From contig NC_019908.1 of the NCBI RefSeq assembly GCF_000325665.1, positions 1 through 64,000 of the forward strand: a stretch of DNA of 64,000 nucleotides. Direction: 5' to 3'. Position numbers and translations under genes: made by a program. This document shows, in pieces, positions 36,268 through 47,959 of this stretch. Source of the stretch: Brachyspira pilosicoli P43/6/78 (GTDB lineage Bacteria; Spirochaetota; Brachyspiria; Brachyspirales; Brachyspiraceae). Each line of letters starts with the position of its first letter. Position 1 is the first letter of the stretch. Under the pieces are notes generated by a model, which was not told where the DNA came from, ran no database searches, and saw nothing but the letters and a program-made list of their open reading frames with translations.

Positions 36268-36538
36268 ACATATCCCAGCAAAAAATTAATTTTCTGTTAT
36301 TATTTTCGGCAATGATATGCTTAAAAAATAATAGCAAATAATATTTTATATATATAAATATTAATAAATATTCATAAAATTAGTAGTGCAAATTAATAGT
36401 TTTTATTTTTATTAATTTAAAATAAAAAATATTAAGATAAAATAAAAACTTGTAAAAAATTAGCTTCTAATATAAAATTGAATATCTTTGTATATTCAAA
36501 AAATATTAAAGAAAATAAAAAAATGGAGCAAAAATAAG

Positions 36539-39304
36539 ATGGATTATAGTTCTACTATCAATTTGCCTAAAACCGCTTTTCCTATGAAAGCTGGTTTAAA
36601 GGAAAAAGAGCCCAAAATAATAAAAAAATGGGAAGATGAAAAACTTTATCAACAACTTAGAGAATTAAGAAAAGGTGCTCCTAAATGTATTTTACATGAT
36701 GGACCGCCTTATGCGAATGGAGACATTCATATTGGAACATCATTAAATAAAATTATTAAAGATATTATTGTAAGATATAAATCTGCTAAGGGGTTTGATT
36801 CTCCTTATGTTCCTGGTTGGGATTGTCATGGTATGCCTATAGAATTAAAGGTTCAAGAAAGTTTAGGAGATAAATATAAAGAAACTTCTAAATTTATAAT
36901 GAGAAAAAAATGCCGTGCTTATGCTCAAAAATATATTGATATTCAAAGAAAAGAGTTTAAAAGACTTGGAGTAATGGGAGATTGGGAAAATCCTTATCTT
37001 ACAATGTCTCCTGAATATGAATCTGAAATAGTTGAAGTATTTGCACAGTTAGTAGAGAAAGGCTACATATATAAAGGACTTAGAACTATTCACTGGTGTA
37101 TGGAGTGTGAAACTGCATTGGCTGCTGCTGAGATAGAATATGATGAAAACCATACTTCTACAAGTGTGTATGTAAGATTTCCTGTATTAAATAAAATAAA
37201 TGATAAATTAAACGGCAATGTTGATGTTATGATATGGACTACTACTCCTTGGACATTGCCTTCAAATATGGCTTGTGCTTTCAATAGAGATTTAGAGTAT
37301 GTTGCTGTTGAAATAGATGGAAGATATGCGATAATGACAACTTCTTTGGTTGATACAGTTTTATCTAAGAAAGAAATGAAAGCAGAGGGAAGAGACATTA
37401 TTCCTATATCTATAGAAGAGATTGAAAAACTTGAAATAGCACACCCATTTATAAAAGACAGAAAGTCTGCTGTTGTATTTGCTGATTATGTTGAGGCTAC
37501 TGCTGGTACAGGTGTTGTTCATACTGCTCCTGGTCATGGTATGGAAGACTATCAGACAGGTATGAATTATGGGCTTGAAATATATTGTCCGGTTGATAAA
37601 GCTGGAAGATATACAAGCGAGTTTCCAGAAATGCAGGGCATGAAAGTAAGAGATGCTAACCCTAAAGTGGTAGAAATACTTGAAAATAACGGTTCATTAT
37701 ACCATAAAGAGAAAGTTACTCACAGTTATCCTATTTGTTGGAGATGTAAAAATCCATTAATATTCAGAGCTACTTCTCAGTGGTTTATGAATATGACTCA
37801 TGATAATATAGATGAAAGAACAGTTAAATCTTTAGATAATATTAAATGGTATCCAGCTTGGGGACATGACAGAATGAAAAAAATGCTTGAAAATCGCCCT
37901 GACTGGTGTTTATCAAGACAGCGTTCTTGGGGAGTTCCTATACCTGCATTCTATTGTAAAAACTGCGGAAAAACTTTACTTACTGCTGAATCTACAAGAC
38001 ATTTTGCTGAAATAGTAAAAACTAAAGGAATGGACGTTTGGTTTGAATTAGAGGCTAAAGATTTACTTCCTGAAGGCACTAAATGTGAATGCGGAAGCTG
38101 TGATTTTGATAAAGAGCAAGATATTTTGGACGTTTGGTTTGATTCTGGTGTATCATCTTTTGCAGCACAGAAAACTAACAAAGATTTGGACGGAGTTTTC
38201 CCTGTTGATATATATTTAGAGGGAGGCGACCAATACAGAGGTTGGTTCCAAGCTGCAATTTGGCCTTCTATGGCTATAAGAGGAATACCTCCATACAAAG
38301 AGCTTGTAACTCATGGTTGGACTTTAGACGAGCAGGGCAGAGCTATGCATAAAAGTGCGGGTAATGTTGTTTCACCTTTAGAAGTTATTGACAAATATGG
38401 TGCTGATATATTAAGACTTTGGTGTATAAGCGAAGACTTCACTCACAATGCACGTGTTGGTGATAACATGATGAAGGCTATTGCTGACAACTACAGAAAA
38501 ATAAGAAACACTTTCAGATATTTGTTAGGCAATATTTCTGATTTTGATTACAGCAAAGAAAAGGTTGAAGTTAAAGATTTACTTCCTGTAGACAGATATG
38601 CTTTATCAAGACTTCATAGTTTTATAAAAGTTGCTGATAAGGCTTGTGATGGTTATGAGTTCCATTTATTCTATCAAAGACTTATAAATTACTGTGTTGT
38701 TGAGCTTTCTGCTACTTACTTTGACATTATAAAAGATAGATTATACTGTGATAGAAAAGATTCTCTCTCAAGAAGAAGTGCTCAGACTGTACTTGTTGAG
38801 ATATTAGATGTATTAGTAAAATTAATAGCTCCAGTACTTCCTTTCACAACCGATGAGGTTTGGGGGTACTACAAAGGTGAAAATGCTTCTTCTGTACATT
38901 TAGAGTTATATCCTAAAGCTGATGAGAGTTTAATTGATTTAGAGTTAGAAAGCGAGTGGGCTTCAATTCTTAAAGTACGCGATGATGTATTATTATCACT
39001 TGAAAGAGCTAGAGATAACAGCACAATCGGAAAATCTTTAGAGGCTTATATCACAATATGCACTAAAGAATCATCAACTAAAGACTTGCTTGCTAAATAC
39101 GAAAAATATTTAAACGAAATCTTCATCGTAAGTAAAGTAACACTTTCTGATAGCAAAGATGACACATTTATAGAAGGCGCCGTTTCTTTTGTTAAGACAG
39201 AGAAAGCTAGTCATGAAAAATGCGTACGCTGTTGGGGACATTATGACAGTGTAGGAAGTGAGCATAAAGAGTTATGTACTAGATGTGCTGAGGCAGTAAA
39301 ATAA
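36539..39304 (+). CDS. ileS: Isoleucyl-tRNA synthetase
   Basis: IleRS (921 aa from the ATG at 36539, which has GGAG upstream) charges tRNA-Ile. The class I HIGH motif is in PYANGDIHIGTSLN near residue 57-70. The CP1 editing domain carries TTPWTLPSNMACAF and GTGVVHTAPGHGMEDY. The KMSKS loop reads MHKSAGN near 602. The C-terminal zinc finger is CVRCWGH...CTRC. Length and order are those of bacterial IleRS. An in-frame upstream extension to 36488 is unlikely to be translated. No T-box leader was recognised. It is monocistronic with a terminator. Confidence 0.96.
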   Translation: MDYSSTINLPKTAFPMKAGLKEKEPKIIKKWEDEKLYQQLRELRKGAPKCILHDGPPYANGDIHIGTSLNKIIKDIIVRYKSAKGFDSPYVPGWDCHGMPIELKVQESLGDKYKETSKFIMRKKCRAYAQKYIDIQRKEFKRLGVMGDWENPYLTMSPEYESEIVEVFAQLVEKGYIYKGLRTIHWCMECETALAAAEIEYDENHTSTSVYVRFPVLNKINDKLNGNVDVMIWTTTPWTLPSNMACAFNRDLEYVAVEIDGRYAIMTTSLVDTVLSKKEMKAEGRDIIPISIEEIEKLEIAHPFIKDRKSAVVFADYVEATAGTGVVHTAPGHGMEDYQTGMNYGLEIYCPVDKAGRYTSEFPEMQGMKVRDANPKVVEILENNGSLYHKEKVTHSYPICWRCKNPLIFRATSQWFMNMTHDNIDERTVKSLDNIKWYPAWGHDRMKKMLENRPDWCLSRQRSWGVPIPAFYCKNCGKTLLTAESTRHFAEIVKTKGMDVWFELEAKDLLPEGTKCECGSCDFDKEQDILDVWFDSGVSSFAAQKTNKDLDGVFPVDIYLEGGDQYRGWFQAAIWPSMAIRGIPPYKELVTHGWTLDEQGRAMHKSAGNVVSPLEVIDKYGADILRLWCISEDFTHNARVGDNMMKAIADNYRKIRNTFRYLLGNISDFDYSKEKVEVKDLLPVDRYALSRLHSFIKVADKACDGYEFHLFYQRLINYCVVELSATYFDIIKDRLYCDRKDSLSRRSAQTVLVEILDVLVKLIAPVLPFTTDEVWGYYKGENASSVHLELYPKADESLIDLELESEWASILKVRDDVLLSLERARDNSTIGKSLEAYITICTKESSTKDLLAKYEKYLNEIFIVSKVTLSDSKDDTFIEGAVSFVKTEKASHEKCVRCWGHYDSVGSEHKELCTRCAEAVK

Positions 39305-39361: not shown

Positions 39362-39475
39362 ATTTATAAATTTGTTAAAATATAATATTAATTATTGATA
39401 GCAGTAAAATGGAACTATAAGAGGTTTAAATAAATTATTATATTATTATAATTTAAGAATTAAAAAGGAGTTATA

Positions 39476-39751
39476 ATGATGACAGTATATAATAAAATAG
39501 GAACTTCAAACGAAAATCCTCCAAATGGTTATAATACTTGGAAAGAATATTGGGAATATAAAAAAGGGAAAAAATTTCAAAAGTGTTCTAATCTGCTATG
39601 TAATAATGATGCTGAAGTTGGAGCTCATGTTTATCCTAATTATTCACATGATACAATATACATAGTACCTTTGTGCAAAGAATGTAATCATATTTATAAC
39701 CAATCACCTATGAATGTAGAAGAAATGGATTTGCTTAGACTTAATCAGTAA
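39476..39751 (+). CDS. Small HNH-like zinc protein
   Basis: A 91-aa protein with four cysteines and two histidines in an HNH/treble-clef-like order: KCSNLLCNNDAEVGAHVYPNYSHD followed by IVPLCKECNHIYN. That order (C-x4-C, GAHV, then LC-x2-CN) is what HNH endonuclease cores look like, but the last catalytic His/Asn helix is short, so nuclease activity is uncertain. AAGGAG precedes the ATG. It stands alone between ileS and the PadR pair. It could equally be a zinc-binding adaptor. Confidence 0.6.
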   Translation: MMTVYNKIGTSNENPPNGYNTWKEYWEYKKGKKFQKCSNLLCNNDAEVGAHVYPNYSHDTIYIVPLCKECNHIYNQSPMNVEEMDLLRLNQ

Positions 39752-41394: not shown

Positions 41395-41425
41395 GGATAG
41401 TTAGTATTTGCTGACTGTCCTTTTT
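41395..41425 (+). terminator. Terminator after the HAAS gene
   Basis: GGATAGTTAG (41395-41404), loop TATTTG, CTGACTGTCC (41411-41420) with two G-U pairs, then five T. It shares loop and arm sequence with the hairpin at 39873-39898, so the PadR pair is bracketed by two related terminators. Confidence 0.75.
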
Positions 41426-41492
41426 ATTATTATTGAATATTTAAGTAAAATTTTATATACTATATAAAAAGTATTGTGAAAATGAGGTGTTT

Positions 41493-44400
41493 ATGGCGAA
41501 TTATAATTCAGCTAAACAGAAAGCTTATGATGTTATTTTGCATTTGGTGGATAATTTTCAAAATGGTATAAAAAGTAAAAATGAAACGGAGACTAGAAGG
41601 TATTATATTGATAAGTTTTTTGAGGCTTTGGGGTGGGATGTTGGTAATGAAAAAGGTAAAAGGGAAGTTATACATGAGGATATAGTGAAGGTGAAAGGGA
41701 AGACTAAATTTCCTGATTATGGCTTTTATTTTAAGGGGAAGAGAGTATTTTTTGTGGAGGCGAAAGATACTAAAGTTGATATAAAAAATGACAGTAGGCC
41801 TGCATTTCAATTGAGGTCTTATGCTTGGAGTGCAAAACTTGGTGTGAGTATTTTGACGGATTTTGAGGAGTTTGCCGTTTATGACTGTACTGTGCGTCCG
41901 AAAGAAAATGATAGGACTGAGGCGGCTAGAATAAAGTATTTTACTTATGAAGATTATTTGAAAGAGGGTGTTTTTGATTATATATATGATTTATTTGAAA
42001 GAGATAATGTTGCTAATGGTTCTTTAGATGCTTATTCTGAGAACTTATGCAATAGAAAGGGGAGCGAGACAGTTGATGTGCATTTTCTTAGCACTTTAGA
42101 TGAGCTTAGGACGAAATTGGCTGTTGTGATAAGTAAGCTTAATAGGGAGATGAGCGAGAAAGATATAAATTATGCGGTGCAGCAGATTATTGACAGGATT
42201 ATATTTTTGAGGGTGGCTGAGGATAGGAATGTTGAGAATTATGGGCTTCTTGCTTTGGCTAATCCTAAAAATAAAAATGAAGATGATTTTAAAAATTACG
42301 GTTTTAATGGGGAGAATAGTTATTATGAGAATTTGAATTATATTTTTGATAGGGCTAATGAGAAATATAATTCGGGGTTATTTGATGAAGATGCGATAGT
42401 AAGAAATTTAAATATAGATGATAAAACAATAAAAGATATTATAGATGAGCTTTATACACCTAAGAATCCTTATCAGTTTTCAGTGATACCAGTTGAGATA
42501 ATAGGTAATGCTTATGAGCAGTTTTTGGGCAAGACTATTAGTATAGATAAGAATCACAAGGCGGTTATAGAATTAAAGCCTGAGGTACGCAAGGCGGGAG
42601 GAGTTTATTATACGCCTGAGTATATAGTAGATTACATAGTAGCGAATACGGTAGGGGAGGCTATAAAGGGTAAGACACCCGATGAGATAGTAAATATAAA
42701 GATATTGGACCCAGCTTGCGGCAGCGGAAGTTTTTTACTTGGGGCGTATAAATATTTGCTAAATTATCATAAGGAATATTTTTTGAAGAATAAGACAAAG
42801 AAATATATGGGTTCAAGATATGAGATAATAGACGAGAGCGGTAATTTAGCATTATGGGTACGTAAGCAGATACTAATTAATAACATATTTGGTGTAGACA
42901 TAGACAGCAATGCGGTAGAGGTAGCGAAATTATCACTTTTATTAAAAAGTTTTGAAGATTCTTTCAATGTTAATGAATACGGGCAAGGTTCTTTACTTAA
43001 TGAGAAAATCCTTCCAAGTTTGGATAACAATATCAAGTGCGGTAACAGCTTGATAGGTAATGATTTTTACGAGAGCCATTTAGATTTGGACGATGCCACT
43101 TTATATAAAATAAACTGCTTTGATTGGGAGGAAGAGTTTAAAAGCATTTTTAAAGGCGGCGGCTTTGATGTAGTTATTGGCAATCCTCCGTATGTAAAAA
43201 TTCAAACTATGATGGAGTCAAGTCCTTTATCTGTTGAAACATTAAAACAAACTTATAAAAGTGCAAGCAGCGGTAATATAGATATTTATTTATGTTTTGT
43301 TGAAAAAGCTTTTGAGTTATTAAAGCCTACAGGTGAAATGGGCTATATTTTGCCGCATAAATTTTTTAAAGTAGATATGGGAGAGAATTTAAGAGAAATA
43401 ATATCTAATAAGAAGGCATTAAAAAAAGTTGTATATTTTGGAGAAAACCAAATATTTGATAATGCTACTACATATACTTGTTTATTATTTTTATCTAATG
43501 AAGAACAAGATAATTTTAAATTATTGAGATTTGATGAAAATGTAGATGTAAAAGAAAAATTGATTGACGCTACTTTTGAAACTTTTCCTATTAGTATAAT
43601 AACAAAAGATAATTGGAATTTCTATAGTAATAATACTTTATCTATAATAGAAAAGTTAAAAAATTATAAAACAGTTTTAAAAGACATATCTCGTAAAATT
43701 TTTGTTGGACTTCAAACTAGTTCTGACATTATTTATGTTTTACATGGAGGAGAAGAAAATAACGGAATTGTTAAAACTTATTCTAAATCATTAGATAGAG
43801 AAATTGAGATAGAAAGAGGATTTATAAAACCATTTTTATTTGGTAAAGATATTAAAAGATATTGTACACCTATAAATACTAAATGGGTTATATTTCCATA
43901 TAAATTAGTATCTGATTCTGCAGTATTATATTCTCAAAAAGAAATAAAGGAACAGTTTCCAAAGGCTTGGGAATATTTAAAAGAGAATAAAAAAGCATTA
44001 GAAAATAGAGAAAATGGTAAAATGCGAAATGAAAAATTTTATGCATATATATATCCTAAAAATCTTAATGAATTTGAGCATAAGAAAATTTCTTTTCCTG
44101 ATATTAATATGAGAATGCAGGCTGTTATTGATGATAAAAATTTGTATCATACAACTACAATTTACAGTATTGTATTTAATGAAAAAGCTATATATAACAT
44201 CAATGTTTATATGGGAATTTTTAATAGTAAGTTATTTACTTATTATGTTAAAAAAACAGGTACTATATTAAGAGGCAATACAACAAGATTTAAACCTCAA
44301 TATATAAATGATTTTCCTATTCCAGATATTGATAAAAATACAGAAGAAAATTTAATTAAACTCGTTGATAATATTATGGAGCTTAATAAAAAATTATCTT

Positions 44401-44531
44401 CTGAAAAAAATCCTAATTCTATTACTATGCTCAACAGGCAAATAAATGCTGTTGACAAGCAGATTGATGCTTTAGTGTACAAGTTATATAATTTGAACGA
44501 TGAGGAAATAAAGATTATTGAGGGTGAATAA
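41493..44531 (+). CDS. Type IIG restriction-modification enzyme (Eco57I-like, fused nuclease-methyltransferase)
   Basis: A 1012-aa single-chain restriction enzyme. An N-terminal PD-(D/E)XK nuclease domain (FPDYGFYFKGKRVFFVEAK, about 72-91) is followed by a helical linker and an N6-adenine methyltransferase with motif I ILDPACGSGSFLLGAY (about 403-418) and motif IV NPPY (about 564-567). A C-terminal target-recognition region of about 350 residues includes DISRKIFVGLQTSSD and ends in a coiled coil. It would methylate and cut at its own site without partners. I prefer the ATG at 41493 over a GTG at 41487. Its stop codon overlaps the RT start by one base (TAATG), so the two are coupled. Confidence 0.9.
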   Translation: MANYNSAKQKAYDVILHLVDNFQNGIKSKNETETRRYYIDKFFEALGWDVGNEKGKREVIHEDIVKVKGKTKFPDYGFYFKGKRVFFVEAKDTKVDIKNDSRPAFQLRSYAWSAKLGVSILTDFEEFAVYDCTVRPKENDRTEAARIKYFTYEDYLKEGVFDYIYDLFERDNVANGSLDAYSENLCNRKGSETVDVHFLSTLDELRTKLAVVISKLNREMSEKDINYAVQQIIDRIIFLRVAEDRNVENYGLLALANPKNKNEDDFKNYGFNGENSYYENLNYIFDRANEKYNSGLFDEDAIVRNLNIDDKTIKDIIDELYTPKNPYQFSVIPVEIIGNAYEQFLGKTISIDKNHKAVIELKPEVRKAGGVYYTPEYIVDYIVANTVGEAIKGKTPDEIVNIKILDPACGSGSFLLGAYKYLLNYHKEYFLKNKTKKYMGSRYEIIDESGNLALWVRKQILINNIFGVDIDSNAVEVAKLSLLLKSFEDSFNVNEYGQGSLLNEKILPSLDNNIKCGNSLIGNDFYESHLDLDDATLYKINCFDWEEEFKSIFKGGGFDVVIGNPPYVKIQTMMESSPLSVETLKQTYKSASSGNIDIYLCFVEKAFELLKPTGEMGYILPHKFFKVDMGENLREIISNKKALKKVVYFGENQIFDNATTYTCLLFLSNEEQDNFKLLRFDENVDVKEKLIDATFETFPISIITKDNWNFYSNNTLSIIEKLKNYKTVLKDISRKIFVGLQTSSDIIYVLHGGEENNGIVKTYSKSLDREIEIERGFIKPFLFGKDIKRYCTPINTKWVIFPYKLVSDSAVLYSQKEIKEQFPKAWEYLKENKKALENRENGKMRNEKFYAYIYPKNLNEFEHKKISFPDINMRMQAVIDDKNLYHTTTIYSIVFNEKAIYNINVYMGIFNSKLFTYYVKKTGTILRGNTTRFKPQYINDFPIPDIDKNTEENLIKLVDNIMELNKKLSSEKNPNSITMLNRQINAVDKQIDALVYKLYNLNDEEIKIIEGE

Positions 44532-46162
44532 TGGAATCTAATGCCAAAAAAGAATTTTTTGATAAAAAATCAAAATTATTAAAATTGGAAAAAAAAGATA
44601 TTTATAATTATCTTTTTTATAATGGATATTATGGGGAAAGATATACATATCCTCCAATATTTAATGTATTAAAGTATAACGAAAATAATTTGAATTCTAA
44701 TACCGAAAACATAGACCATTATGATTTACTAAATATTGAAGTAAGACATACAGAAACTGCAAAGAGAATATTTTCTCTAATTCACCCAGATATATATTGT
44801 CAGATTGTTGATGAAATTGTTAATAATTGGGTTAAAATAATAAACCATATATATAATGATAATTTAAAAGTATATTCTTATAGTTTTCCAATTACTATTA
44901 CAAATAAAAATAAGATAGATTTCAAAAAGTCTAAAACTATGATTTATAATTTTTTAACTTTAGAAGAAAAGATAGCTTACGATAGCTATAATTATAAATA
45001 TATTTTGATAACAGATATATCTAAATTTTATCATTCTATATATACGCATAGTATAGCTTGGGCTTTATATGGTGATAGAGAAAAAGCTTATGAAAATAGA
45101 AAAGATAAAAGTGCTTTACCTAATAAATTAGATATGTTGTTTCAAAAAGCTAATCATAAACAGACTAATGGTATACCTATAGGTCCCGTTGTATCTGATA
45201 TAATAGCCGAAATTGTTTTAGCAGGAGTTGATAAATCATTTTCTGAAAATGAAGAAATAAAAAAAATGGATTTTATTTCAATAAGATATAAAGACGATTA
45301 TAGATTTTTGGTTAATACAAAAGAAGATGCTGAATATATATTAGAAATATTAGAAAGAGAATTACAAAAATATAATTTATGGGTTAATAAAGAAAAAACT
45401 AATATTTATAAAATGCCTGCAGGTTTAGAAAGAAAGTGGAAAAAAGAATATAATACGAATTGTGTATTATCAAATAAAATAACTATGAGTAAATTTCAAG
45501 ATGCTTATAATTATTTAATAGAAATAGAAGAAAAATATCCCGGTACAGCTATGTTATCTAAATTCTTTGATAGTCTTATTGATAAAAAAGGAAATGTAAT
45601 ATTTAGTAAATTTGCCCTTATGAATAAAATTAAAGTAATTAATTTATTATCGTTATTAGTAGATTATTCTCCAAGAATTTTACCACAATTACTTTCTATT
45701 ATAGAATTATTAATATTACATGATAAATCAGAAGAATTTAATAATTTTATAAAACAATTTATTAATAAAATGTACTATCATATAATTATAAATAAAAAAG
45801 TAGACATATTTAGATTTATATGGGTATACTATTTTGCTAAAAAACATAATATTATATTGGAAATAAATGAGGAGTTAAATATAAAAAAGGAAGAACTAAA
45901 AAAACAAAAAGAAGGATTGGAACAGACAATAAAAGAATTTGGGAAGACAATAAAAGAATTTGAGAATACAATAAAAGAGTTAGAAAGTAAAGGAGAATTA
46001 GAAAATAAAAAAGAATTTGAAAATAAAAAAGATGAATTAATAGAGTTAAAAGAAAAGTTAATAGAAGAAAAAAGTAAAATTAATGGAAGAAGAATTAACT
46101 CAAAAAGAAAAAGAATTAGAAAAAATATTAAAAACAGACCCATTTATACAATATATAGATAA
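44531..46162 (+). CDS. Abi/DRT-like defence reverse transcriptase
   Basis: A 543-aa reverse transcriptase of the unknown-group/abortive-infection kind. Motif A is ITDISKFYHSIYTHSIAWAL (about 160-178), motif B QTNGIPIGPVVSDIIAEIVL (about 210-229), and the catalytic box YKDDY at 253-257. A helical C-terminal region (about 320-450) and a strong Lys/Glu coiled-coil (about 455-520) follow. There are no group II intron maturase or retron signs that I can see. The last 28 codons are Arg/Lys-rich and look out of frame; a more protein-like continuation lies in the next frame (46083-46274). It is coupled to the type IIG gene. Antiviral function is inferred from family and context. Confidence 0.85.
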   Translation: MESNAKKEFFDKKSKLLKLEKKDIYNYLFYNGYYGERYTYPPIFNVLKYNENNLNSNTENIDHYDLLNIEVRHTETAKRIFSLIHPDIYCQIVDEIVNNWVKIINHIYNDNLKVYSYSFPITITNKNKIDFKKSKTMIYNFLTLEEKIAYDSYNYKYILITDISKFYHSIYTHSIAWALYGDREKAYENRKDKSALPNKLDMLFQKANHKQTNGIPIGPVVSDIIAEIVLAGVDKSFSENEEIKKMDFISIRYKDDYRFLVNTKEDAEYILEILERELQKYNLWVNKEKTNIYKMPAGLERKWKKEYNTNCVLSNKITMSKFQDAYNYLIEIEEKYPGTAMLSKFFDSLIDKKGNVIFSKFALMNKIKVINLLSLLVDYSPRILPQLLSIIELLILHDKSEEFNNFIKQFINKMYYHIIINKKVDIFRFIWVYYFAKKHNIILEINEELNIKKEELKKQKEGLEQTIKEFGKTIKEFENTIKELESKGELENKKEFENKKDELIELKEKLIEEKSKINGRRINSKRKRIRKNIKNRPIYTIYR

Positions 46163-46274
46163 TGAAAAACCAATATTTGATTATAAAGATGATAGATTAA
46201 TTATATATAAAGATACCAATTACGATGATTTTATATATAATTATGTTACAATTTTTGGTAAGAAAATAAAATAA
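46083..46274 (+). pseudogene. Frameshifted C-terminal tail of the reverse transcriptase
   Basis: A 63-codon ORF continuing the coiled coil (MEEELTQKEKELEKILK) and ending with a small folded-looking end (FIQYIDNEKPIFDYKDD...VTIFGKKIK). If the A6 tract at 46068-46073 had five (or eight) A, the RT frame would run into it without a stop, giving a protein of about 580 aa. It has no ribosome site of its own, so an independent gene is unlikely. Confidence 0.55.
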
Positions 46275-46335
46275 AAAATAATTGAATTATTAATTGTTAA
46301 TTGAGTTCTTTATTTAATTTATGTTAGATAGTCTA

Positions 46336-46363
46336 TTGACGAAAACTTATGCTACTCTAATAT
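46336..46363 (+). promoter_or_regulatory. Promoter-like sequence after the RT gene
   Basis: TTGACG (46336-46341), a 16-bp spacer and TAATAT (46358-46363). It lies 60 bp after the end of the RT reading frames and would start a transcript near 46370 that runs through the inverted repeat and tandem repeats. There is no ORF. Confidence 0.45.
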
Positions 46364-46373
46364 GCGATAATGA

Positions 46374-46509
46374 ACCGCACACTGTTACATATTCTACAAT
46401 ATTAAACTATGCCGTGCGGAAAGCCCGTATGGCGAATACTGCGGAGTGGTGCTACAGCTAGTAGTGGCGAATACTGCGGAGTGGTGCTACAGCTAGTAGT
46501 GGCGAATAC
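46374..46509 (+). repeat. 35-bp tandem repeat and inverted repeat, candidate RT-associated RNA
   Basis: A GC-richer stretch between the RT and GH13 genes. CCGCAC (46375-46380) and GTGCGG (46414-46419) can form a stem. A 35-bp unit is then repeated exactly: 46430-46464 and 46465-46499, plus the first 10 bases again at 46500-46509. The unit begins TGGCGAATACTGCGGAGTGG and ends CTACAGCTAGTAG, the latter able to form a small hairpin. It is not similar to the GC-rich elements at 4.9, 8.9 and 15.2 kb. The remaining parts of 46275-46600 are AT-rich and hold the two promoters. Confidence 0.6.
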
Positions 46510-46566
46510 CTACGATTGTACATAAGCAAAAAGCCTCCTTTTTTCTTTAATAATAATAATTATTAG

Positions 46567-46594
46567 TTGTATTTTTGTATTAATTTTATATAAT
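46567..46594 (+). promoter_or_regulatory. Promoter giving a near-leaderless GH13 mRNA
   Basis: TTGTAT (46567-46572), 16-bp spacer, TATAAT (46589-46594). The start codon at 46601 is six bases beyond the -10 box, and no ribosome site exists. Confidence 0.5.
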
Positions 46595-46600
46595 ATATAC

Positions 46601-47959
46601 ATGAATACTTCTATTTACAATCTATTTCCTCCTCTTTTGGGGCACATCTCCAACTGGTATAAGCATATTGATAGAATTAAATACATGGGTTTTGAATGGA
46701 TTTATATAAACCCTATTACATATCCTGGCTTTAGCGGTAGTTTGTACGCTGCGAAAGATTATTACAAATATAATGAAAACTTCTTTTCAAGTGCTGAGGC
46801 TAATATTGCTGAAAAAGAATTAAAAGATTTTTTGAAATATTGTAAAAAAAATAATATTAAGGTTATGATAGATTTAGTTATCAATCATTCTTCGAAGGAT
46901 AGTGTATTAGTTGATGAGCATTTTGAATGGTATTTGTTAGATGATGAAGGTAAATTAAAATCCCCTGGTGCTTGGGATAATGGTGTGTGGATTGAATGGG
47001 GCGATTTGGCTAGCTTCAACAATGAAAAGCCTGAAGATGGTGATAATTCTATTTGGAGCTATTGGAAAGAGTTAATACTTCATAATTTGAGTTTAGGTTT
47101 TGACGGGTTTAGATGTGATGCTGCTTACAAGGTTAATAAAGATTTGTGGATATATCTTATTGGCATTGCTAAAACTAAGAAAAAAGATACTGTGTTTTTT
47201 GCTGAGAGTTTAGGCTGTTCTATGGAAGATACATTGTCTTTGATTGAGGCTGGATTTGATTATGTGGCAAGCAGTGCAAAGTGGTGGGATTATGAGTCTG
47301 AATGGTTTATAGAGCAGTATGATTTGGCTAGAGAAAAATCTAAACAGATAGCTTTCCCTAGTAATCATGATACTTTGAGACTTATTAATGAATATAACGG
47401 TAATATATGGCAAGTTATGCAGAGATTTTTGTTTACTGCTATAGTTTGCGATATGTGGATGATAACTTTGGGCGATGAATACGGCTTTTATAATAGATGC
47501 GATGTTGTAAAAGGTAATGAGTTTGAGAATATTAGCTATGATTTAAGCGAGTTTATAAAAGATATTGGTAATTACATAAAAAATAATGATATACTTGCTA
47601 ATTGCGGTAAAATAGTGTCTATTGATTTGCAGGAGAAGAAGCTAATAGAGGAGCTTAAAAAGAAACTAGAAAACTCACAAGAAGAAAATAATATAAATAA
47701 TGATAATGAAGAAGAAGAGAAAAAAAATCCTCTAAAGCGTTTTTATAAATATAGCCTAGATGAAAAAGATGTTGTTTTAATAGTAATTAACACAAGTGAA
47801 GATAAAGAAACTTTAGAAATAGATAAATACAATATAATAGAAGATATATCATTTAATAATAGAGTAAATAATTTTGAAAGCGGCGTAGTGGAGTTTTTGC
47901 CTTATCAATTAAAGATATTTAAAGTGGTAAAAACTATTAGTTATAATTTAGAAGGTTAA
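46601..47959 (+). CDS. Glycoside hydrolase family 13 (alpha-amylase-like) enzyme
   Basis: A 452-aa GH13 (beta/alpha)8-barrel enzyme. Conserved regions: MIDLVINHSSKDS (region I), GFDGFRCDAAYKV with the nucleophile Asp (region II), VFFAESLG with the acid/base Glu (region III) and IAFPSNHDTLRL (region IV). The C-terminal part has a beta domain interrupted by a Lys/Glu/Asn linker. There is no signal peptide, so it acts on cytoplasmic alpha-glucan or maltosyl compounds. The exact reaction (hydrolase or transferase, for example GlgE-like) cannot be decided. It is 6 bp before the kinase gene. Confidence 0.85.
   Translation: MNTSIYNLFPPLLGHISNWYKHIDRIKYMGFEWIYINPITYPGFSGSLYAAKDYYKYNENFFSSAEANIAEKELKDFLKYCKKNNIKVMIDLVINHSSKDSVLVDEHFEWYLLDDEGKLKSPGAWDNGVWIEWGDLASFNNEKPEDGDNSIWSYWKELILHNLSLGFDGFRCDAAYKVNKDLWIYLIGIAKTKKKDTVFFAESLGCSMEDTLSLIEAGFDYVASSAKWWDYESEWFIEQYDLAREKSKQIAFPSNHDTLRLINEYNGNIWQVMQRFLFTAIVCDMWMITLGDEYGFYNRCDVVKGNEFENISYDLSEFIKDIGNYIKNNDILANCGKIVSIDLQEKKLIEELKKKLENSQEENNINNDNEEEEKKNPLKRFYKYSLDEKDVVLIVINTSEDKETLEIDKYNIIEDISFNNRVNNFESGVVEFLPYQLKIFKVVKTISYNLEG

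Follow-up and report, generated by a model that had tools for sequence, protein, structure and literature searches.

A type IIG restriction gene of Brachyspira that probably anchors a modular defence island, with a UG14 reverse transcriptase as exchangeable cargo

Results

A type IIG gene and a reverse transcriptase gene overlap by one base

We examined two adjacent defence genes in the genome of Brachyspira pilosicoli P43/6/78T (hereafter P43/6/78), one for a type IIG restriction-modification (RM) enzyme, here called the IIG gene, and one for a reverse transcriptase (RT) directly behind it. Both lie in the window, the stretch of 64,000 nucleotides (nt) of contig NC_019908.1 that was analysed, and all coordinates refer to it. 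The original prediction was that the two genes are translationally coupled and may form a layered or joint antiviral unit. The open reading frames, start codons, overlap and motifs were checked and are as it had described them. Other genomes are denoted below by G numbers and other DNA stretches by L numbers.

41493–44531, forward strand: type IIG RM enzyme of 1,013 amino acids (aa), with Eco57I methylase, HSDR_N and TaqI_C domains (PADLOC REase_MTase_IIG)
44529–44533, forward strand: TAATG, in which the IIG stop overlaps the RT start (from the sequence); an equal -1 overlap stands ahead of the RES gene in G118
44531–46162, forward strand: RT of group UG14 (class 1 UG/Abi RTs), in the frame as found (PADLOC RT_UG14)

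The IIG stop codon TAA (44529–44531) and the RT start codon ATG (44531–44533) have the TAATG in common. The reading frame coordinates thus bear out the overlap at 44531, and the overlap supports the proposed arrangement for translational coupling. The preferred start of the IIG gene is the ATG at 41493, with GAGGTG just ahead of it. The gene is intact over its whole length, and its product matches the REase_MTase_IIG model with 778 bits over 28–1003 of 1011 positions (PADLOC) and includes Eco57I, N6_Mtase, TaqI_C and HSDR_N domains. Nuclease, N6-adenine methylase and recognition domain all lie in a single chain, as is characteristic of type IIG, and the motifs are DPACGSG at aa 408, NPPY at aa 566 and PD...EAK (numbered from a GTG at 41487). 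By these domains the enzyme is predicted to cleave and methylate DNA in a site-specific manner. Profile matches also support the assignment of the pair as defence genes, one a type IIG enzyme and the other an RT of the Abi/DRT class.

The IIG gene is widespread and its downstream neighbour varies

We surveyed 26 Brachyspira genomes, one per species. The IIG gene was present in 21 and the RT in two, namely that of P43/6/78 and that of the uncultured Brachyspira G132. Two IIG genes flank the RT in G132: a different one, of 1,243 aa, ends 62 nt upstream, and the orthologous one lies downstream. Conserved co-occurrence of the two genes, as expected of a dedicated RM-RT system, was not found. No UG14 RT was present in the remaining genomes of the class, and none was found in scans of viral contigs. 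A scan of genome contigs returned only G132, with patterns that were poor and did not survey genomes outside the Spirochaetota effectively. Phages and plasmids contained only more distant class 1 RT relatives, at about 26–35% identity.

Within the stretches fetched, the IIG gene lies downstream of ileS in 13 of the 21 genomes that carry it, and the slot behind it is filled differently from genome to genome. Several genomes have a RES-domain gene there. Elsewhere the slot contains Gabija GajA and GajB (630 and 349 bits), a retron I-C RT-Toprim gene (494 bits in G103, and by similarity in G147), PRTase and DprA genes (PsyrA/ShosA), a TcmP-like gene (PDC-M30A), ImmA pairs, or genes of no known family. 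A conserved flank with variable defence content, seen also in the comparison of G088 with the window, is the pattern of a defence hotspot.

Exchange of this cargo can be observed directly. The full-length IIG genes of G118 and G123 are 94–99% identical in all four segments, and the cargo is a gene for a 384-aa protein in one and Gabija in the other. The recognition parts of G118, G123, G022 and G136 are linked at 94–97% identity and are accompanied by four different cargos; those of G065, G093 and G098 are 98–99% identical and have three. At nine junctions the cargo starts -1 to +8 nt from the end of the IIG copy, and six kinds of cargo are involved: RT, RES, TPR-DUF2971, KAP, a second TPR protein and the 384-aa protein, to which no family was assigned. 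Because such close coupling is common to six unrelated kinds of cargo, the overlap appears to come with the slot and is hardly informative about the RT in particular. Given this distribution, the IIG genes that are 94–98% identical and yet have entirely different cargo, and a different defence gene in G088, the dedicated RM-RT unit of the original prediction is unsupported and was rejected as the leading idea.

The closest relative of the locus, G088, is 99.3% identical to the window over 41421–43070, where its contig ends, and 96% identical from 46522 on. Ahead of the latter match, the G088 contig carries a PD-T7-4/DUF4145 gene, the hairpin repeat at the position where the window has its copy, and a DUF2442/DUF4160 gene pair; no RT was found in G088. 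The identity of the IIG N-half to G088 (L042), at 99.3% as against 91–96% in the flanking DNA, suggests that the N-half was recently transferred between species.

The IIG gene is a mosaic

Comparison of the full-length and partial copies divided the IIG gene into the following parts.

41493–43031, forward strand: N-half, the nuclease and methylase core common to all full-length copies; 99.3% identical to G088, 87% to G098 and about 70% to most others
43054–43201, forward strand: left homology arm just ahead of NPPY, near the start points of the silent half-genes of relatives
43202–44356, forward strand: target-recognition part, swapped separately from the N-half; at the nt level 94% identical to a silent half-gene of G072
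44364–44531, forward strand: right homology arm, the conserved IIG 3' end, which contains a Shine-Dalgarno-like GAGGGTG for the next gene and is kept in full-length, silent and C-terminus-only copies alike

Besides a full IIG gene, about eight genomes contain C-terminal halves or pieces of one, and silent cassettes were seen in G072, G078, G108, G118, G123, G151 and G022. Several of these halves begin at aa 516–518 and others at aa 548–551, and they extend to the C-terminus. The longer ones hold one stretch of about 150 nt, before and at NPPY, and another of about 170 nt at the 3' end, on either side of a variable recognition part; these two stretches are also where the full IIG genes are alike. 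Silent halves have cargo behind them as well, including KAP (PDC-S49) and TPR-DUF2971 (PDC-S31) genes. Many silent copies in relatives are frameshifted, and the silent halves may be dead.

Mosaicism was observed directly in the IIG gene of the window. Its recognition part is closest to the silent half of G072, followed by the G078 gene at 88%, and the full-length IIG genes of G072 and G078 are only 71–72% identical to it in the N-half. Its 3' arm is closest (81–84%) to copies with unrelated recognition parts, the best match being the silent half of G078 at 84%. Across 171 pairs, identity in the N-half was scarcely correlated with identity in the recognition part (r = 0.14). The recognition parts fall into six families, in which species, cargo, and silent as well as full copies are mixed, and in other species the nearest recognition parts often belong to silent half-genes that carry cargo of their own. 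Judged by these alignments, the IIG gene is a mosaic: the closest relative is a different one for the N-half, the recognition part and the 3' end. The final codons of the IIG copies, which specify IIEG, contain a ribosome-binding-like GAGGG or GAAGG, and this element would serve any gene that follows.

The reverse transcriptase belongs to group UG14

45287–45298, forward strand: YKDD catalytic box of the RT, intact (from the sequence)
45924–46091, forward strand: tandem-repeat tract of 21/18-nt units that codes for a coiled coil; absent from the G132 RT
46065–46274, forward strand: C-terminal RT tail in another frame, open from 46065; resembles the end of the G132 RT

The RT matches the RT_UG14 profile with 537.5 bits over 2–492 of 493 positions, followed by Drt6 with 207 bits and Drt4 with about 200 (PADLOC). 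By this measure, the RT is a clear member of UG14, a sister group of DRT4, DRT6 and AbiP2. The THSIAWAL, IPIGP and YKDD motifs named in the original prediction are all present. The closest solved structures are six-chain DRT4/UG15 entries, followed by AbiP2, AbiK and Drt3b. An AlphaFold2 model of the RT homologue from G132, in which a C-terminal helical-repeat (alphaRep) domain was looked for, is a poor model with a predicted local distance difference test (pLDDT) value of 45 as a whole, and has helices at 311–450 with values mostly of 61–91. UG14 RT resembles DRT4 (UG15), DRT6 (UG12), AbiP2 and AbiK in the YxDD box, and is similar to solved structures of DRT4, AbiP2 and AbiK, but differs from these systems in the C-terminal tail, which is frame-broken in P43/6/78.

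An Rfam search of 44400–46650 gave no match, so that no known noncoding RNA partner is indicated for the RT. In a partial collection of open-access literature we found no publication on the mechanism of UG14. DRT4 makes random single-stranded DNA without a template and turns toxic once a phage protein protects the product (PMC13213688), and the class 1 RTs studied to date synthesize untemplated DNA (PMC13174585). By relation to DRT4/UG15, DRT6, AbiP2 and AbiK, the UG14 RT most likely works as a protein-primed oligomer that synthesizes untemplated DNA, and through this product it probably acts alone.

The reading frame of the RT stops at 46162, and the conserved C-terminus is found in a different frame at 46065–46274, where 'DPFIQYIDNEKPIF...NYDDFIYNYVTIFGKKIK' matches the end 'NKFINYMENRTDIF...NINDFIYNHVSIFKKINIKH' of the G132 RT. 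The latter is intact (513 aa) and is the only close homologue. Because the conserved C-terminus sits outside the frame of the RT gene, the frame must change within the tail, and this may reflect either a sequencing error or a true mutation. The two are indistinguishable here since the P43/6/78 genome was sequenced by 454 and its authors count 100 genes with a potential frameshift (PMC3587939). The original prediction had also proposed that a long coiled coil in the RT could bind the restriction enzyme. This coiled coil is the product of the tandem-repeat tract, and since the G132 RT has no such tract, it hardly qualifies as a conserved binding arm; the idea was rejected.

Reverse transcriptases beside restriction genes elsewhere

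The original prediction would have failed if homologues of the two genes never co-occurred elsewhere. In fact the same RT adjoins IIG genes in G132, and an AbiP2 RT adjoins two different ones on Pediococcus plasmids, so that this ground for refutation falls away. On two plasmids of Pediococcus damnosus, the same AbiP2 RT is followed by differing IIG genes (L073 2655–7143 and L080 5749–10995), one for a product of 922 aa, the other for one of about 1,194 aa that includes a TaqI-like specificity domain. Type I RM genes are found close to RTs in L. kefiri and L. lactis, and RM genes by AbiA and AbiK were reported earlier (PMC8934634). An RM neighbour of the RT was absent from the stretches shown for E. 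faecium, Paracoccus, a P2-like element, S. epidermidis, S. aureus and Rhizobium. DRTs of other groups adjoin PglZ, kinases or Gabija-like genes.

Two further loci were seen alongside these. In another spirochaete, G368 (L007 7578–13501), a DRT4/AbiP2-like RT comes after an Eco57I-type methylase (a split reading frame) and a protein-kinase-like gene. On plasmid p4 of Rhizobium lentis (L078 1273–6359), TOPRIM and helicase genes, a Gabija-like pair, stand right ahead of an RNA-directed DNA polymerase gene, nearly without a gap.

Flanks and repeats of the island

36488–39304, forward strand: ileS, isoleucyl-tRNA synthetase, the conserved left anchor of the hotspot; within the fetched stretches it is 89–97% identical and on the same side of the IIG gene in 13 of the 21 genomes that have this gene
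39476–39751, forward strand: p91, a 91-aa gene, with an 89% identical gene 66–67 nt past the IIG stop in G098 and G072 and the leader GGAACTATAAGAGGTTTAAATAAA in common
46375–46419, unstranded: 45-nt hairpin repeat CCGCAC-N33-GTGCGG of a genus-wide family, found between cassettes in IIG islands
46430–46509, unstranded: tandem repeat of 35 bp that carries motif GTGCTACAGCTAGTAGT, found ahead of silent half-genes in relatives; its two copies are the sole ones in the genome
46601–47959, forward strand: alpha-amylase-family gene that borders the island on the right; from 46522 on, the window and G088 are 96% identical

The leader of the p91 gene near ileS (39408–39751 with the gene) matches that of the copies that trail the IIG gene in G098 and G072. 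The gene is apparently a remnant of an older cassette, and was probably left over from the cargo of an earlier IIG gene.

The hairpin family (45–46 nt, CCGCAC-N33/34-GTGCGG) is dispersed in 24 of the 26 Brachyspira genomes, with about 20 copies in P43/6/78 and up to 47 elsewhere; no known family was identified for it. Copies are concentrated in the IIG islands, which hold 9 of 16 in G078 and 6 of 7 in G123. Ahead of the silent halves that start at aa 516–518 stands the hairpin repeat, together with a motif GTGCTACAGCT or CGAATACTGCGG. The hairpin is also found behind the RT, both in the window and directly past the RT in G132 (L006 10299–10344), and the GTGCTACAGCTNGTAGT motif occurs nowhere else in the P43/6/78 genome. 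The repeats were considered as integron attC sites and rejected as such: by eye they have no attC core sites, and they are dispersed through most of the genus.

Several cargo genes behind full or silent IIG genes match neither Pfam nor PADLOC (L053 7392–8546 and 13675–15510; L048 5446–8079; L047 3249–5216) and are candidate new defence genes. A pair of DUF4160 and DUF2442 genes (84 and 80 aa) recurs in many islands (for example, L069 1251–1756, L047 2630–3132 and L006 3373–3872) and is likely a toxin-antitoxin pair.

Discussion

Together, these observations make it likely that the IIG gene anchors a cassette island driven by recombination, in which the UG14 RT is an exchangeable, co-translated cargo that acts independently of the enzyme, in the manner of DRT4. 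The island behind ileS would be modular, and three of its parts could be exchanged, namely the N-half of the IIG gene, its target-recognition part, and the cargo gene or genes right behind the IIG 3' end. The conserved stretches before and at NPPY and at the 3' end would serve as homology arms. Recombination at these arms with imported Brachyspira DNA, or in relatives with local silent halves, would replace the recognition part, the cargo or both. VSH-1, the Brachyspira gene transfer agent, is a plausible carrier of the imported DNA. The ribosome-binding-like end of the 3' arm would allow new cargo to be co-translated at once and, because the genes overlap, the IIG enzyme and the RT would come from one transcript. 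The enzyme would restrict unmodified DNA at an earlier stage, and the product of the RT would block the phage or the infected cell, without dependence on the enzyme.

Several points weigh against this interpretation. Recombination is deduced from the mosaicism. The parts sometimes travel together, as in a silent and expressed pair from G147 and G078 that has both the recognition family and the retron cargo in common. We infer that the N-half in G088 is joined to PD-T7-4, and this link crosses a contig gap. RTs recur beside RM genes, with RM partners that can be exchanged; this pattern agrees with shared islands and may also reflect a real synergy. Finally, the P43/6/78 genome has no silent IIG half (one match at E≤1e-50), and hence no local store for within-strain switching. 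This last point bears on a stronger version, in which the islands are switching devices and a silent half with its own defence gene is moved into the expression site at the two IIG arms. Cells of one population would then change DNA specificity and co-translated defence, together or separately, and the UG14 RT would be one such defence. We regard this stronger version as possible but doubtful.

An RT that guards the IIG enzyme, silent as long as the enzyme is whole and released once restriction is blocked by a phage, would account for the one-base overlap and for the recurrence of RTs beside IIG genes, both around the G132 RT and on the Pediococcus plasmids, and has a precedent in PrrC, which is encoded inside the type I locus of EcoprrI (PMC12707154). 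The same IIG gene is nevertheless followed by many unrelated cargos and usually by no RT, the close partner in G132 is a different IIG gene, the coiled coil is not conserved and the overlap is common to other cargo, so that we consider a guardian role improbable. Simple clustering, in which the two genes are chance neighbours in a defence island and the IIG gene has no special role in exchange, is suggested by the general tendency of defence genes to cluster and by the varied neighbours of other DRT groups. That cargo has joined the IIG 3' end repeatedly, that silent halves and C-terminus-only remnants each have cargo behind them, and that the breakpoints coincide with the conserved IIG stretches make such clustering very improbable as an explanation. 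It is most improbable that the locus is dead or decaying and the pair inactive. The frame changes in the RT tail and the frameshifted silent copies of relatives would fit such decay, but the IIG gene and the catalytic core of the RT are intact, almost the whole UG14 model is preserved, and potential frameshifts are numerous in this 454 genome.

The recombining cassette island that we favour has parallels in several known systems. The enzyme itself is like other type IIG enzymes with an Eco57I-like methylase and a TaqI-like specificity domain in having nuclease, methylase and recognition in one protein; it differs in that the Brachyspira 3' end doubles as a junction for varied defence genes and that the islands of relatives also store silent recognition halves, along with the cargo of these halves. 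At the pneumococcal tvr locus, recognition domains are reportedly swapped by recombination. In the domain movement (DOMO) and target-recognition domain (TRD) exchange of H. pylori, S. pyogenes and M. agalactiae, recognition domains are swapped at conserved flanking repeats (PMC3077401). Those systems concern S subunits, whereas in Brachyspira the recognition part belongs to a single-chain IIG enzyme and a separate downstream defence gene is also exchanged. In orphan CdiA-CT/CdiI modules and Rhs tip-immunity arrays, promoterless C-terminal halves come after a complete gene, every half has a downstream gene of its own, and there are conserved points at which recombination can enter. The Brachyspira halves differ in that they encode DNA-recognition domains and their downstream genes are defence systems, and no immunity relation was seen. 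EcoprrI-PrrC likewise ties a defence gene to a restriction locus, but PrrC is silenced by and embedded in the type I locus, and nothing in the Brachyspira data points to such dependence. Defence hotspots such as the E. coli immigration control region and those of P2 and P4 also have conserved flanks and variable content, whereas the exchange points in Brachyspira lie inside the restriction gene.

The locus also illustrates that an overlap between genes need not mean a functional partnership. If the interpretation is right, the restriction gene would be both a defence and a recombination port, through which specificity and a second defence gene are exchanged in small steps and are ready for expression. 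This would help to explain the fast turnover of defence islands, and would suggest a rule by which new defence genes could be sought, in the DNA that follows IIG 3' ends and orphan IIG halves.

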